From: an uncultured Desulfovibrionaceae bacterium
Lineage (GTDB): Bacteria > Desulfobacterota > Desulfovibrionia > Desulfovibrionales > Desulfovibrionaceae
Direction: 5' to 3'
Assembly: GCA_949741925.1 (NCBI GenBank)
Contig: CATJOY010000056.1
Coordinates: forward strand, 1-64,000
Length of the DNA stretch: 64,000 bases
Under the pieces are notes generated by a model. The model did no database searches. It was not told the DNA's origin and saw only the letters and a program-made list of their open reading frames with translations. Both the position numbers and the translations under genes were made by a program. Positions 15,648-20,961 of the stretch are shown piece after piece (the first letter of the stretch is position 1; each line of letters opens with the position of its first letter).

Positions 15648-16727
15648 TCACTCGTTCAGCGAATCATTGTCCTTAGGACCGCGGAAAAGCTCTAGATGGC
15701 GGCGCATGATCCAATTGCCAAGAGGTTCAATCTCGCCGTTTCCTGAAAGGCGCAGCCATTCGATCTGACTACCCTTGGTTTTTTCCTTGGGACGAGCCCA
15801 GGCCAGAAACTGAAGACCGAGATTCATACCCCTGGTTTCAAAATCCAGAATGGGCACCTTAACGCGGGAGATCATCCAAAAACGCAGCCGGGCGGATTGA
15901 TCCGGATCCCAAAGATCCACCATAACCATGATCCGGTCGTTGATACGGATGTGCTCGATCTCCGTTGCCAAATGCTCGCGCGGAATATGCAGCTTGATGC
16001 CCCCGGCGGAAATATCCGTTACCAGAAACTGGCGGCTGATATTGGGATAATACACCAACGAAGGCTTGGGCCAACGCTGCAGATCCTCCTGAGCATCGTC
16101 TCCGGGCATATCGTCCCCACGCCAAAAGGCCGCGCCTAGCAGGTACTCTTCCGGAGGCGCAATGCGGAGATAGGAACGCTTTTGCCGGGATTCGATTTTC
16201 GCCGGGATATGTACACGGATGTGGCACAAACCGCCGTCAGAGCTAATATCCTTTACCGTTGAGGAAAAAGTATGGTAGAGATGCTGCCCCTGGTTATTAA
16301 CCTGGAAATAGCAGGTAACGGGCTTCTCCGCCCAGCGATTGGAAAGCTGCTGCAGGCCGGAAATTTCCAGAATGAGAAACGGCCCCTCGATACGCAGCCC
16401 CGTGCAGCGCAGCGAGGGCAACCGCCCGCCCTGATCAGGAGCAAATTGGAGTTCAAATTTAGAGCGCTGATCCAGGGCAAGACGCAACAGTTCGCGGATT
16501 TTCTTAGAATCCAAAACCCAATCTTCGGGAACGTAAACCCGTCGTTTATTGCGGATGGCAAGGATAATAATACAAATTAGGAGAACGGCAATAACCGCAA
16601 TAAGCCCCAAGATAATATCCATGGGAGCCTCATTCAAAGCTCTGTTAAGAAAAGAGTCCTTTATTTCCCCAAGGTAAGAGGCCTGAAAGCTCAACTCTTC
16701 CAGACCTGAAAACCATAAAAATCCCAT
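15648..16727 (-). CDS. Membrane-anchored PilZ-domain protein (c-di-GMP receptor candidate)
   Basis: The 359-residue protein has one transmembrane helix (about 38-58, IAVIAVLLICIIILAI), an YcgR-N-like flavour in the middle, and a PilZ domain. The c-di-GMP contacts are RSYLR (RxxxR) near residue 190 and DISAGG (D/NxSxxG) near residue 245. Such proteins usually tune flagellar or surface behaviour in response to c-di-GMP. A flagellar-type cluster and an HD-GYP phosphodiesterase gene elsewhere in the window fit this. ATG 16727 is chosen because TCAGGAGGAGCG immediately precedes it; a TTG five codons up is less likely. Confidence 0.82.
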   Translation of the reverse strand: MGFLWFSGLEELSFQASYLGEIKDSFLNRALNEAPMDIILGLIAVIAVLLICIIILAIRNKRRVYVPEDWVLDSKKIRELLRLALDQRSKFELQFAPDQGGRLPSLRCTGLRIEGPFLILEISGLQQLSNRWAEKPVTCYFQVNNQGQHLYHTFSSTVKDISSDGGLCHIRVHIPAKIESRQKRSYLRIAPPEEYLLGAAFWRGDDMPGDDAQEDLQRWPKPSLVYYPNISRQFLVTDISAGGIKLHIPREHLATEIEHIRINDRIMVMVDLWDPDQSARLRFWMISRVKVPILDFETRGMNLGLQFLAWARPKEKTKGSQIEWLRLSGNGEIEPLGNWIMRRHLELFRGPKDNDSLNE

Positions 16728-16958
16728 CGCTCCTCCTGACAATAAGTAGCCGCGGGCAAACCGGATCTAGCGCGCAACCGTAATGGAGCAGATTTTTTAT
16801 TACTACCATTAATCTGTAGGTATCGCAAGAGGATGAGGCAAACATTCCTTACCTGCCTTCCTCAGCCCCTCATCCCTTGGGCGGCGCGCAGCAAGTATAA
16901 AAAACTAAAGACGCTTCATAGTATATATTTTTGTAATATTTTCTACAGAGAATTCTCC

Positions 16959-17972
16959 TTAGAGAAGGTTGGACGGCCTTATCCGGCTGATGTCTTGCTG
17001 CCGGGTGGCAAGAGGTAGAGCTCCGTCGCCTCCTTGGCCGGATCGAACCAAAAAAGCACTCACAGTTTCAGCGGCAGCCACCAGCGAAGCCTGCCCCAGA
17101 TGAGCATAGCGCATGGTTGTTCTGGGGTCGCTGTGTCCAAGCAACTTTTGTACCTCATACAGTGAGTGCCCGGCATTCACCAAAAGGCTGGCAAAGGTAT
17201 GCCGCAGGTCGTGAACGCGCACATCGGTAAGGCCGAGCCCTCCCCGCAATCGGTTCCAGAAGATATAAATATCAGAGAGCGCTTTCCCCTGCGCATGGCC
17301 GGGAAAAAGCCATGGGCACCCGGGGCTGCGGGGAATAGCGCGAATGATCTGCACGGCCTCATCGGAGAGCGGAATATGACGCGGCTTGCCGGATTTGGAA
17401 AGGGGCACAGTGAGCAGACGCTGATCCAACCGCACGTTTTCCCATCGGGCCTTGAGTATTTCGCTCTTCCGCGCGCCAGTCAGAAGAAGCAGACGGATGG
17501 CGAGAGCCTCCGGGCGATCGCTTTTGAGCAATTCCTGCATGAGCCGTTGCGCTTCGTCTTGCGTAAGATAGCGTTCCCGCCGGGTATAAATTTTAAAAGG
17601 AGAGATGCCCGTGCATGGCGATTGCCCGGCGGGCAGCAGGCCATGCAGATTTGCCAGGGAGCAAATGCTCTTCAACACCGCAAAAATGCGGTTACACGTG
17701 GCCGGTGCCAAGCCGCGGGCGGCAAGCTGATGCAGCCAGTCTTCCACATCACTGCGGCGTATACCGGCAACCCCCCAATCTCCAAAGGCCGGGGAGAGAT
17801 ATTGTCTGGCAATGCGTTCATCGACACGCCAACTGCGCTTGCGGAGCCGGATGTGCGGCAAATAGACGGACGACACGAAGATATCAAGGGTGAATACATT
17901 GTTCCCCGCGGTTTTGCTCTGTTCTTCAGACAGCGAACCATTGATTAAGGACCAAAACGGATGACGGGCCAT
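16959..17972 (-). CDS. Orphan tyrosine recombinase (phage-type integrase)
   Basis: This 337-residue site-specific recombinase has an N-terminal SAM-like core-binding domain (about 30-125) and an intact catalytic domain. The catalytic set is all visible: R168 in TGARKSE, a lysine in SKSGKPRHIPL, H254 and R257 in HDLRHTF, H280 in LLGHSDP and nucleophile Y289 in MRYAHL. ATG 17972 follows AGGAG at about 8 bases; the frame is open 28 codons further up. No phage, plasmid or transposon genes, and no tRNA, are near it. It could be the remnant of an integrated element or a domesticated recombinase. Confidence 0.88.
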   Translation of the reverse strand: MARHPFWSLINGSLSEEQSKTAGNNVFTLDIFVSSVYLPHIRLRKRSWRVDERIARQYLSPAFGDWGVAGIRRSDVEDWLHQLAARGLAPATCNRIFAVLKSICSLANLHGLLPAGQSPCTGISPFKIYTRRERYLTQDEAQRLMQELLKSDRPEALAIRLLLLTGARKSEILKARWENVRLDQRLLTVPLSKSGKPRHIPLSDEAVQIIRAIPRSPGCPWLFPGHAQGKALSDIYIFWNRLRGGLGLTDVRVHDLRHTFASLLVNAGHSLYEVQKLLGHSDPRTTMRYAHLGQASLVAAAETVSAFLVRSGQGGDGALPLATRQQDISRIRPSNLL

Positions 17973-18352
17973 GCGGTGTGCTCCTGCAAAAGTGAAGAAG
18001 GGCGCCCTGCCAGAAGGTCTTTGCGTCCTGTAGGCAGACTTTGCACAGCCTATCACGTTTTTTTAACAACCTCCGGCAAAGGGGCAGCCACGCCGAGGCA
18101 ATTCAGAGAGGTAGGTGAGAATGGCATAACTCGCAAAAAAAATCAAATTTTTTAACAATTTAAGCAAAACTCTTTGCCTTACCCCGATCCTTTTCACGAG
18201 ATGGGCATGGCAGGCAAAAAAAAGTAACGTAGAGCAAGTATGCCGGTGGATTGTCTCAAGCGGGGGATAAAAAAGGAAGGGAACATGTTGGTGCAAGTCC
18301 TATGGCGCTCGAAGTAAAAGCGCCCGATGCCGATCCCCCCCTGCGTTTTTCC

Positions 18353-18368
18353 TGGCAAGGTCTTTGCA
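18353..18368 (+). promoter_or_regulatory. Sigma-54 promoter upstream of the FlgO-type cluster
   Basis: TGGCAAG-GTCT-TTGCA matches the -24/-12 consensus TGGCACG-N4-TTGCA at all but one position. The GG (18354-18355) and GC (18366-18367) are exactly 12 bases apart. Transcription would start near 18380, giving a leader of about 150 bases to the ATG at 18527. RpoN control of flagellar genes is well known in polar flagellates. Confidence 0.68.
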
Positions 18369-18466
18369 TTATACCCGATAGGAGAATATCCGGAGACGGC
18401 AATTTTTTCCCAGGGAACAGCCTGAGGCTTACGGGGAAGGATCACGGAGCCGGGGTGTATCCGGCT

Positions 18467-18493
18467 TAAGAAAAAAAGTCCTTCTGCCGATAA
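18467..18493 (+). promoter_or_regulatory. Sigma-28 (FliA) promoter upstream of the FlgO-type cluster
   Basis: TAAG, then 15 bases, then GCCGATAA (18486-18493). The -10 element is identical to the FliA consensus, the spacing is canonical, and the -35 box differs by one base from TAAA. The predicted start near 18500 gives a short leader ending in TTTGGAGGAATC before the ATG. With the sigma-54 site 100 bases upstream, this looks like tandem middle/late flagellar control. Confidence 0.65.
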
Positions 18494-18526
18494 GCGGGAT
18501 AGATGTATTCTTTGTTTGGAGGAATC

Positions 18527-19450
18527 ATGACCATAAACTGCAATACTGCCCCTTACGAGGCTGAATCCGGACGGCGCACGAAGCGCCGGCAGGAATATTT
18601 TTCCAGCCCCGGCCTGCTCCGGCGTCTGCTTTCTCCTGTTCTGCTGCTTACCTGCGTCCTCTGCGGGCCTCTCCCTGCGGCAGCATCCGAAATGTACGTT
18701 CCCGGAACCATGTCTGTTCCTGGAGGAATTGGCGTTATGAACGCCCTCCCTCTTCAAGAGGCCGGCACTAATGCCATGAACCGCGATAAAGCCAAGGTTT
18801 ACGCTTTCCCGGGCAATGATGCGGGGTTTGCCCTGCCCGGAGGCGATGGAGCCGTGTTGTGGGTTCCGGCGCCGACCCAAGGCCCTGCGGCAGCCGCTAT
18901 GGATGCCCGGGAACTCAAGCTTAAGGTCAGAGAACTGACCGAACAGCTGATTGCGGGGATGGACGGCGTGGCCTGGGGGACTATTGCCGTGCCCACCGTA
19001 TTCGTCAACCAGGATGATTTTACCCGCACTTCTTCCTTGGGCCGCTTCATGGCCGAACAGCTCTTTTACGAGTTCAACCAGCGCGGCTACCCCACTCGAG
19101 AATACCGGTTGGCCTCGCAGGTGCGTTCAAAAGAAGGGCGGGGCGAATTTCTGCTTTCCAGGGCTATCCCCCCGATCAGCGCTAAAAACAAAAGTCTGGT
19201 CTTTGTCGTCGGTACCTACTATGCAGACCGGCAGGCCATTTTTCTGAACGCCCGCCTGGTCCGGGGCACGGATGGCACGGTTCTGCGCACCGGCCAGGTT
19301 ATTCTTCCCAACAACGCCATGACCCGGCGGATGCTGGCCGGTGGAACCGGCAGGCAGGTCGCGAGCGGCTCTATCCCCGTCCGCGATTTCACCACCGCGA
19401 CCCACCCCACCAATCTGACCCCCATCGATCTGGGGCAGGATATTCACTGA
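18527..19450 (+). CDS. FlgO-domain outer-membrane/periplasmic protein
   Basis: The 307-residue protein has a long N-terminal export signal (basic stretch, then LLSPVLLLTCVLCGPLPAAA, cleavage near residue 53). Its C-terminal half (about 130-270) matches the FlgO domain: paired ELTEQLIAGM, TIAVPTVFVNQDDF, SSLGRFMAEQLFYEFNQRGY, and a VVGTYYADRQAIFLNARLV strand pair. FlgO in Vibrio is an outer-membrane protein needed for flagellar stability and motility. ATG 18527 follows TTTGGAGGAATC. It begins a cluster with a small lipoprotein (17 bases later) and a second FlgO-type gene. Flagellar promoters upstream strengthen the call. Confidence 0.75.
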   Translation: MTINCNTAPYEAESGRRTKRRQEYFSSPGLLRRLLSPVLLLTCVLCGPLPAAASEMYVPGTMSVPGGIGVMNALPLQEAGTNAMNRDKAKVYAFPGNDAGFALPGGDGAVLWVPAPTQGPAAAAMDARELKLKVRELTEQLIAGMDGVAWGTIAVPTVFVNQDDFTRTSSLGRFMAEQLFYEFNQRGYPTREYRLASQVRSKEGRGEFLLSRAIPPISAKNKSLVFVVGTYYADRQAIFLNARLVRGTDGTVLRTGQVILPNNAMTRRMLAGGTGRQVASGSIPVRDFTTATHPTNLTPIDLGQDIH

Positions 19451-19466
19451 AGCCGGGAGGACCACG

Positions 19467-19769
19467 ATGCAACGCATTTTCCTGATCTTCTGCCTGGGAG
19501 CGGCGCTGATCCCCGGCATGACGGCCTGCTCTTCCAAGAGCTACTACGGCGGCGCAACAGAACCCGGAGTTATCCGGACAGTGGACCACAACCCGGTAAG
19601 TCTGCTCAATTACAAACAGGCCAGAATATACAGCGCTCAGGGGCGTTACGAACTGGCTCGAGAACAATACCTGCTGGCCTATGCAGCGGCTGAAGGCGAT
19701 CCGGTTTTGCGTTCAACCCTGGCGCAGGAACTCAAAGCTGTGGATATGATGCTGCGCACTATGCGCTAA
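19467..19769 (+). CDS. Small lipoprotein, TPR-like
   Basis: This 100-residue lipoprotein has a signal peptide ending in the lipobox GMTAC (Cys21). The mature part has a helix pair (YKQARIYSAQGRYELAREQYLLAYAAAEGD) that reads as one tetratricopeptide-like unit. It lies 17 bases after the FlgO-type gene, so they are cotranscribed. Small lipoproteins (FlgP, FlgT neighbours) accompany FlgO in other flagellates, but I cannot equate this one with any of them. Confidence 0.72.
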   Translation: MQRIFLIFCLGAALIPGMTACSSKSYYGGATEPGVIRTVDHNPVSLLNYKQARIYSAQGRYELAREQYLLAYAAAEGDPVLRSTLAQELKAVDMMLRTMR

Positions 19770-19866
19770 GGGTGTTGCAAATACCACTCCACCTGTGAAA
19801 AGAGGCATGGTTCTCCCTGGCGGCCCAGTGGTTCCTTATACACGCGGTTTTCCCGGTTGCGATCGC

Positions 19867-19898
19867 CAAAGGGAAAAGGCGGCTTGCCGGCAGAAACA
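19867..19898 (+). repeat. Fragment resembling the dispersed repeat (copy D)
   Basis: AAGGGAAAAGGCGGCTTGCC followed by GGCAGAAAC resembles the distal part of copies B (near 54398-54425) and C (near 59123-59152), in the same orientation. Only about 30 bases are recognisable, so this is a partial or decayed copy. Confidence 0.35.
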
Positions 19899-19958
19899 AG
19901 AAGGCCCTCTCAGAATCTTTCGTCGGCCTGAAGCGTTCTTAGTTAGAAGGATATGCAT

Positions 19959-20603
19959 ATGAATATGATACTCTCCACATCCCGGACAGGTTCCGGAAAG
20001 ATTCTTCTCCCAGGGATCATTGTCGTGGCGCTGCTCCTTGCGGGCGCGAAAAGCGTCTTTGCCACCGAGTCTTTCATCTCCGTGGAAGGACAGGTGCCAC
20101 AGGCAGCCTCGGCCATGGCTCGCCAGATCGACCGCCAGATAGCCTATCGACTGCTTCAGCCTGAAACGCCCACTACCGGGGTTTCTCTCGCCGTTACCGT
20201 CCCCGTTGACGTCAATAATCTGGAAGAATCCAACCCCTTAGCCCGTCAGATGGCCGAGGAACTGGCCCGCTGGTTTGTGCAGGCCGGGTATTCGGTTCAG
20301 GAAATACGCAAGGGGCACGCGGTGCTGTACGAACAAGGCACCGGCGAAATGCTGCTGACTCGGCGCACGAATCTGTTGGAAAAACATTCGATCAAATCCG
20401 CGGCCATTCTTACGGGCACCTATACTGTAACCAACCGGGTGGTGCGCTTCAATATCCGGGTGCTCCAGACCGCCAGCCAGGAGGTGTTGGGCATGGCAAC
20501 TATCAGCGTCCCCTTGTCCAGTGAACTGAAACCCTTGCTGGGCATGGCTATGCACAGCGTCGGCATGGGCATAGAGCCCTCGGTGATGACCACACTCCCC
20601 TGA
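19959..20603 (+). CDS. Second FlgO-domain exported protein
   Basis: The 214-residue protein has a membrane/signal segment (about 14-35, ILLPGIIVVALLLAGAKSVF, then ATE). A FlgO-like domain follows: RQIDRQIAYRLL, VTVPVDVNNLEESNPLARQMAEEL, AGYSVQEIRKG, ILTGTYTVTNRVVRFNIRVL. It is paralogous in plan to the product at 18527. ATG 19959 is preferred over ATG 19953 because AAGG ends 8 bases before it. It lies 189 bases after the small lipoprotein and is followed by a good terminator, so it closes the flagellar-type cluster. Confidence 0.72.
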   Translation: MNMILSTSRTGSGKILLPGIIVVALLLAGAKSVFATESFISVEGQVPQAASAMARQIDRQIAYRLLQPETPTTGVSLAVTVPVDVNNLEESNPLARQMAEELARWFVQAGYSVQEIRKGHAVLYEQGTGEMLLTRRTNLLEKHSIKSAAILTGTYTVTNRVVRFNIRVLQTASQEVLGMATISVPLSSELKPLLGMAMHSVGMGIEPSVMTTLP

Positions 20604-20636
20604 GTTTACGACGCTCTCCCGCTGGAAAGCGCTCTG

Positions 20637-20684
20637 CCTCACTTCAGACGTTAGGTATTAACCGCGTATGAAGTGAGGTTTTTT
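20637..20684 (+). terminator. Rho-independent terminator of the flagellar-type cluster
   Basis: CCTCACTTCA (20637-20646) pairs perfectly with TGAAGTGAGG (20669-20678), followed by six T residues. It lies 34 bases after the second FlgO-type stop codon. Confidence 0.75.
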
Positions 20685-20961
20685 CCGACTGACGGCCCGG
20701 GGGGGGGGACAACGCGATGTAACAGCAGATAAGGGATCGGGACCATGGCGGATGCCGTTGCAATATGCGCCTCTCCCCCCTTGCGGCGCTGCCCGCTTTG
20801 GTGCGAACCCCACACAGGCCTTGCCTCCGAACCGCGGAGCGCTCTTTTCTCCGATCAGTGCCAAGCCAATGTTCCAGCCCTGACGGTTGCGGCTCTTTCC
20901 AGCCTACAGGAGCGAAATTTTCTTGACCTTCGGCGCATACTGGCATAGCACAATCTCAACA

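Follow-up and report, generated by a model that had tools for sequence, protein, structure and literature searches.

A Desulfovibrionaceae operon of two FlgO types and a small lipoprotein, preceded by sigma-54- and sigma-28-type promoter sites

What does a pair of FlgO genes, arranged around a small lipoprotein gene and preceded by promoter-like sites for two flagellar sigma factors, contribute to a Desulfovibrionaceae cell? FlgO, the FlgO ring and sigma-54/sigma-28 flagellar cascades are already known. In Vibrio, the H-ring at the outer membrane is built from FlgO and FlgT and is gone when the lipoprotein FlgP is lost, and both flgO and flgP are of the sigma-54 class (PMC6504787). Arcobacter butzleri has a FlgO homologue without FlgP, and tomography there revealed a disk whose 5–6 concentric rings lie close against the outer membrane, as described in a 2018 survey (PMC5758724). 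Homology searches in that survey are reported to have found no accessory motor proteins, FlgO included, in the delta-proteobacteria, whereas 50 of the 59 genomes that we searched from relatives in the order have FlgO matches. In D. vulgaris, two studies report sigma-54 control of the flagellum through the FlbD-like DVU1063 (PMC3333781, PMC4641369). We found in print, within the open-licence PMC literature, no FlgO in Desulfovibrio motors, no two-FlgO operon, no recurring double promoter of this kind and no tomography image of a Desulfovibrio flagellar motor.

We propose, with a probability of roughly 0.72, that the operon is a Desulfovibrionaceae flagellar accessory in which two FlgO types and a TPR lipoprotein form an outer-membrane ring module, transcribed under RpoN and then under FliA.

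Two FlgO genes flank a small lipoprotein gene

The window, by which we mean the whole 64-kb stretch of DNA analysed, comes from a Desulfovibrionaceae genome of 2.79 Mb (98% complete, 109 contigs). Among the named loci retrieved, its nearest relative is Desulfovibrio sp. OttesenSCG-928-I05, with 59% identity in gene A. The features of the operon are as follows.

18352–18368, + strand: sigma-54 (RpoN) promoter-like site CTGGCAAGGTCTTTGCA, with TGGCAAG-GTCT-TTGCA from 18353
18467–18493, + strand: sigma-28 (FliA) promoter-like site TAAG-N15-GCCGATAA, an exact match
18518–18522, + strand: GGAGG ribosome-binding sequence of gene A, read from the sequence; GGAGGAA-N-CATG in the sister genome too
18527–19450, + strand: flgO-A (gene A), 307 aa; FlgO domain at residues 136–264; C-terminal DxGxDIH; Sec-type signal peptide by eye
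19467–19769, + strand: small lipoprotein gene, 100 aa; single TPR-like helical hairpin plus capping helix
19953–20603, + strand: flgO-B (gene B), 216 aa; FlgO domain at residues 55–189; C-terminal PSVxTxLP; signal peptide by eye
20636–20685, + strand: intrinsic-terminator-like hairpin with a T run after it, at the end of the operon; fold −24.4 kcal/mol, z −4.78

For gene A the most likely start is 18527, preceded by the GGAGG and a better choice on sequence grounds than the 18503 of the longest open reading frame. At the other end, none of 200 shuffles folded as well as the closing hairpin, which a pattern scan for terminators with a loop limit of 8 did not list. The 183 bases between the middle gene and flgO-B leave space enough for a separate promoter. 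Sigma-site scoring gave no match in this gap in the window, and of 49 B loci, 5 had a match upstream of flgO-B at the thresholds used, that of the window not being one of these.

Both outer genes encode members of the FlgO family. The products of genes A and B match PF17680 at E 4.3e-29 (101.4 bits) and E 8.9e-28 (97.2 bits), against a Pfam cut-off of 22.6 bits, in agreement with an earlier sequence-only reading that had both promoter sites pointing at a FlgO-domain gene; both proteins thus pass the profile check which that reading had proposed. Family profiles, each built from 15 orthologues and searched against solved structures, matched solved FlgO (9yfg/9yh6/9yh7, 9yds) at E 3.5e-21 for A and E 3.8e-11 for B. 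Three of these entries together contain 174 FlgO chains and the remaining one contains 58, so that there are 58 per entry, as would suit a large ring.

In the middle protein there is a hydrophobic, lipobox-like leader ending in a cysteine, a flexible linker and, in its structural model, a confident three-helix TPR-like domain at residues 43–99. Across 15 orthologues the leader cysteine is nearly, not fully, invariant; residues of a GRxELA stretch and the final arginine are invariant. Pfam returned TPR models alone, all below their cut-offs. Assignment to a named family was tried without success for this protein: the NCBIfam search gave no match and the fold search, which had no match at E 0.001 or better, gave generic TPR or helical ones. 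The Pfam matches, the leader cysteine and the three-helix model together bear out the description of two FlgO-type genes flanking a small TPR-like lipoprotein.

The same reading had set this arrangement apart from the FlgO–FlgP–FlgT set of Vibrio, and our searches support it: the window's own genome has no match to FlgT_M (PF16539) and none to LPP20 (PF02169), the family to which we take FlgP to belong, so what is present here does not appear to be the Vibrio set. Among the 59 genomes of relatives, FlgT_M matches were found in three, all weak, one of them at the cut-off inside a 940-aa frame; LPP20 matches were found in 12 at E 0.001, of which four exceeded the cut-off.

The operon does not adjoin flagellar structural genes: none was present among the neighbours scanned in the window and in relatives, which are housekeeping, regulatory or unassigned genes. 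On its 3′ side lies an RsbRD_N-domain gene, and the genes downstream are, judging from their translations, presumably dsrM, dsrK, dsrJ, dsrO and dsrP of sulfate reduction. On the 5′ side, a XerC/D-like integrase gene sits between a PilZ-like gene and flgO-A (window 16959–18056 and 15648–16742, both on the − strand). At L052, the sister locus, flgO-A and the PilZ-like gene are immediate divergent neighbours with no integrase between them, and the integrase therefore looks inserted; the window yielded no tRNA, and flanking repeats were not seen.

Sigma-54- and sigma-28-type sites recur upstream of gene A

The sites at 18353 and 18467, which had been read as consensus sigma-54 and sigma-28 promoters with correct spacing, are both there as described. 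Chance matches were considered for these promoter sites and rejected on three counts. First, the 64-kb window has a single match to YTGGCANG-N4-TTGCW (chance mean 0.07) and, even when one mismatch is tolerated, a single match to the sigma-28 pattern, which is exact (chance mean 0.17). Second, across the whole 2.79-Mb genome the exact sigma-28 core occurs 5 times and its reversed-pattern control 2 times, and the sigma-54 core occurs 13 times and its control 3 times. The two cores fall on one strand within 150 bp of each other at two places in the genome alone, the flgO operon and the front of fliD (FliD_N E 1.6e-18; locus L114); arithmetic from the core counts gives an expectation of about 0.004 such pairs genome-wide. 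Third, the sites are enriched in relatives, as set out below. The genome also encodes both sigma factors, RpoN (E 1.5e-61) and FliA (E 3.8e-76).

At fliD the sigma-28 core lies upstream of the sigma-54 core, 31 bases apart, an order opposite to that at the flgO operon.

Upstream regions of relatives were scored with consensus sequences for both sigma factors. Three of 50 A loci, with fewer than 700 bases upstream (L058, L079, L107), were left out, and the remaining 47 were compared with 581 controls, which are mechanical open reading frames of at least 250 aa from the same loci rather than curated genes; because the loci share kinship, the counts that follow are not independent events. Upstream of gene A, 34 of the 47 loci have a sigma-28-type site, against 24 of the 581 controls. 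Sites scoring at least 11 for sigma-28 and at least 14 for sigma-54 occur together in 13 of 47 loci and in none of the controls. In many Desulfovibrio loci the sigma-54 site is a GGAA variant. When this variant was allowed and the sigma-54 site was placed 40–140 bp before the sigma-28 site, the ordered pair was found in 21 of 47 loci and 2 of 581 controls, with thresholds that are partly post hoc, having been widened after the stricter scoring was seen. As this test was shaped by the earlier one and the loci are related, we do not use its p-value as evidence. In the 21 paired loci the sigma-54-type site comes first, by 63–115 bp; among them is the sister genome (L074), with a comparable sigma-54 site 110 bp before its sigma-28 site.

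Before the sigma-54 site, a AAGCCAAG block recurs in several loci of Desulfovibrio, L095, L098 and L113 among them, and is perhaps part of the divergent gene's promoter.

The wider spread of the sigma-28-type site raises the alternative that FliA alone drives the operon as a late gene set, the sigma-54-like site being a relic or lacking an activator, with no layering. Several lineages have the sigma-28-type site alone, Nitratidesulfovibrio among them, so layering is not universal; the Nitratidesulfovibrio-type loci L078, L080, L085 and L100 gave no convincing sigma-54 site, a difference from the D. vulgaris regulon under DVU1063, which belongs to the same family and in which flagellar genes are reported to be under sigma-54 (PMC4641369, PMC3333781). 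Transcription by FliA alone would also agree with the sequence near the window's sigma-54 site, where we found no clear FlbD-type enhancer site, the sole candidate being a GGCA-N5-TGCC-like site with one mismatch at about 18398. Against FliA as the only driver stand the ordered pairs in relatives, the sister genome included, and the placing of Vibrio flgO in the sigma-54 class (PMC6504787). We regard this alternative as unlikely, although it is the strongest of the three considered. Layered control, as the sequence-only reading had suggested, is supported though not proven: the order of sigma-54 site followed by sigma-28 site recurs in relatives, rpoN and fliA are present, and fliD has both types of site.

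The operon is conserved and accompanies the flagellum

Gene order is conserved. Of 19 tandem loci, namely the window and 18 others that were fetched, 15 have the middle gene, and the order A, lipoprotein, B is found in 39 of 40 named loci recovered with the A profile, the 40th, L085, stopping at a contig end. Named loci with the operon include Desulfovibrio, Nitratidesulfovibrio, Halodesulfovibrio and Mailhella. When 84 FlgO domains were placed in a tree, the 24 of type A grouped together (support 1.0), and the 24 of type B made up a second clade with two further sequences (support 0.993), which argues that the two FlgO types are old rather than products of a recent duplication.

A second FlgO system occurs in Desulfovibrionales (L032–L052; for example, L032:7015–9587 and L052:1284–2962), in which FlgO lies beside a lipoprotein of about 240 aa. 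Of 39 loci, 19 have this lipoprotein (19 members in all), which matched none of the Pfam families scanned; in L050 it carries a fused OmpA domain (E 8.5e-21). The window's genome has two FlgO matches, A and B, and its sister G001 also has the second system.

The module is linked to the flagellum by co-occurrence. The window's own genome encodes flagellin, FliG and FliD. Among 288 genomes of the family, 153 matched both the B profile and FliG, 43 matched neither, 11 matched the B profile alone and 81 matched FliG alone, so that FliG was present in 153 of the 164 genomes positive for the B profile. Nine of the 11 genomes with the B profile alone are under 90% complete. Within one genus range of 77 genomes (genomes 84–160, bounds inferred from the numbering, genomes without an entry in the match tables included), 53 had both, 16 had neither, 4 had B alone and 4 had FliG alone; module and FliG thus agree in 69 genomes and are discordant in 8. 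The 81 of 288 genomes with FliG and no B-profile match indicate that the module is not needed for the flagellum as such: it is an accessory which some flagellated lineages are without. On the same count, the idea that FlgO is a constant companion of flagella was rejected.

Two genomes, G146 and G026, are 98–99% complete and have a B-profile match without a FliG match, the match in G026 being a distant FlgO. They are candidate cases of a FlgO function apart from the flagellum, or of a flagellum lost recently.

Could A and B be general envelope factors, engaged for example in export or cell-wall work, that are merely co-regulated with flagella? The structural model of A (mean pLDDT of 65, a middling value, with the FlgO domain better than the remainder) leaves room for this idea, as does the position of the module away from flagellar structural genes: the closest fold to the model is LpoB (Z 9.2, rmsd 3.0, 118 residues aligned), followed by TolB and PelC. 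The flagellar ring protein FlgT appears in the same list (Z 5.8, rmsd 4.3, 107 residues aligned), and the alpha/beta fold that the model of A shares with LpoB, TolB, PelC and FlgT by itself shows no function. The solved FlgO entries are absent from the fold lists of A, whose library runs to April 2026; we tie A to solved FlgO through the sequence match. At E values up to 1, FlgO is the only solved protein that the A profile hits. With this specificity and the agreement of module and FliG across the genus range, we consider a general envelope role improbable, more so than transcription by FliA alone. Single consensus matches do arise by chance, as the genome control counts show, but that promoter sites and gene labels alike are chance matches is scarcely credible given the FlgO E-values, the uniqueness of the sites in the window and their enrichment in relatives.

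Discussion

Our preferred reading, a flagellar accessory with two FlgO types, would place A and B in the periplasm or at the outer membrane as part of the motor. By analogy with the Vibrio H-ring and the Arcobacter FlgO-associated disk, the FlgO proteins would most likely encircle the L-ring beneath the outer membrane, in a single ring or in two concentric ones. The lipoprotein may anchor or join these rings, replacing FlgP and FlgT, and the module would then have a role in motility. We infer from the promoter sites that RpoN would start transcription during hook-basal body building and that the FliA promoter would take over after FlgM export, so that ring subunits would be supplied during and after assembly; transcription would end at the terminator-like hairpin after flgO-B.

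Comparison with known systems shows what is shared and what is not. Like the Vibrio flgO/flgP/flgT genes, which are under flagellar sigma-54 control (PMC6504787), the genes here pair a FlgO-family protein with a lipoprotein partner and a sigma-54-type site, and, as with the Vibrio H-ring genes, the lipoprotein gene shares an operon with flgO. Unlike Vibrio, there are two FlgO paralogues rather than one, a sigma-28-type site is added, and the lipoprotein is of TPR type with no LPP20 match, in a genome with no FlgT_M match. The Arcobacter butzleri disk, whose concentric rings were seen by tomography (PMC5758724), shares with our case a FlgO that occurs without FlgP there and without an LPP20 match in the window's genome here; what differs is that here there are two FlgO paralogues and that a lipoprotein gene stands in their operon.

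A bolder and more tentative idea, which we hold with less confidence than its negation, is that the operon encodes a third kind of outer-membrane flagellar disk: a hetero-ring or a concentric ring pair made of two dedicated FlgO paralogues linked by a one-repeat TPR lipoprotein, without FlgT or FlgP, in which RpoN-then-FliA supply would match ring growth to the stage of assembly.

FlgO matches in most of the relatives surveyed here sit against the published report of none in the delta-proteobacteria (PMC5758724). The predicted motor structure could be sought directly by cryo-tomography in a laboratory strain, and with its two natural paralogues the operon lends itself to the question of how a FlgO ring is put together when FlgT is missing. 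In Desulfovibrionaceae, gut species included, the two-FlgO operon tracks the flagellum.
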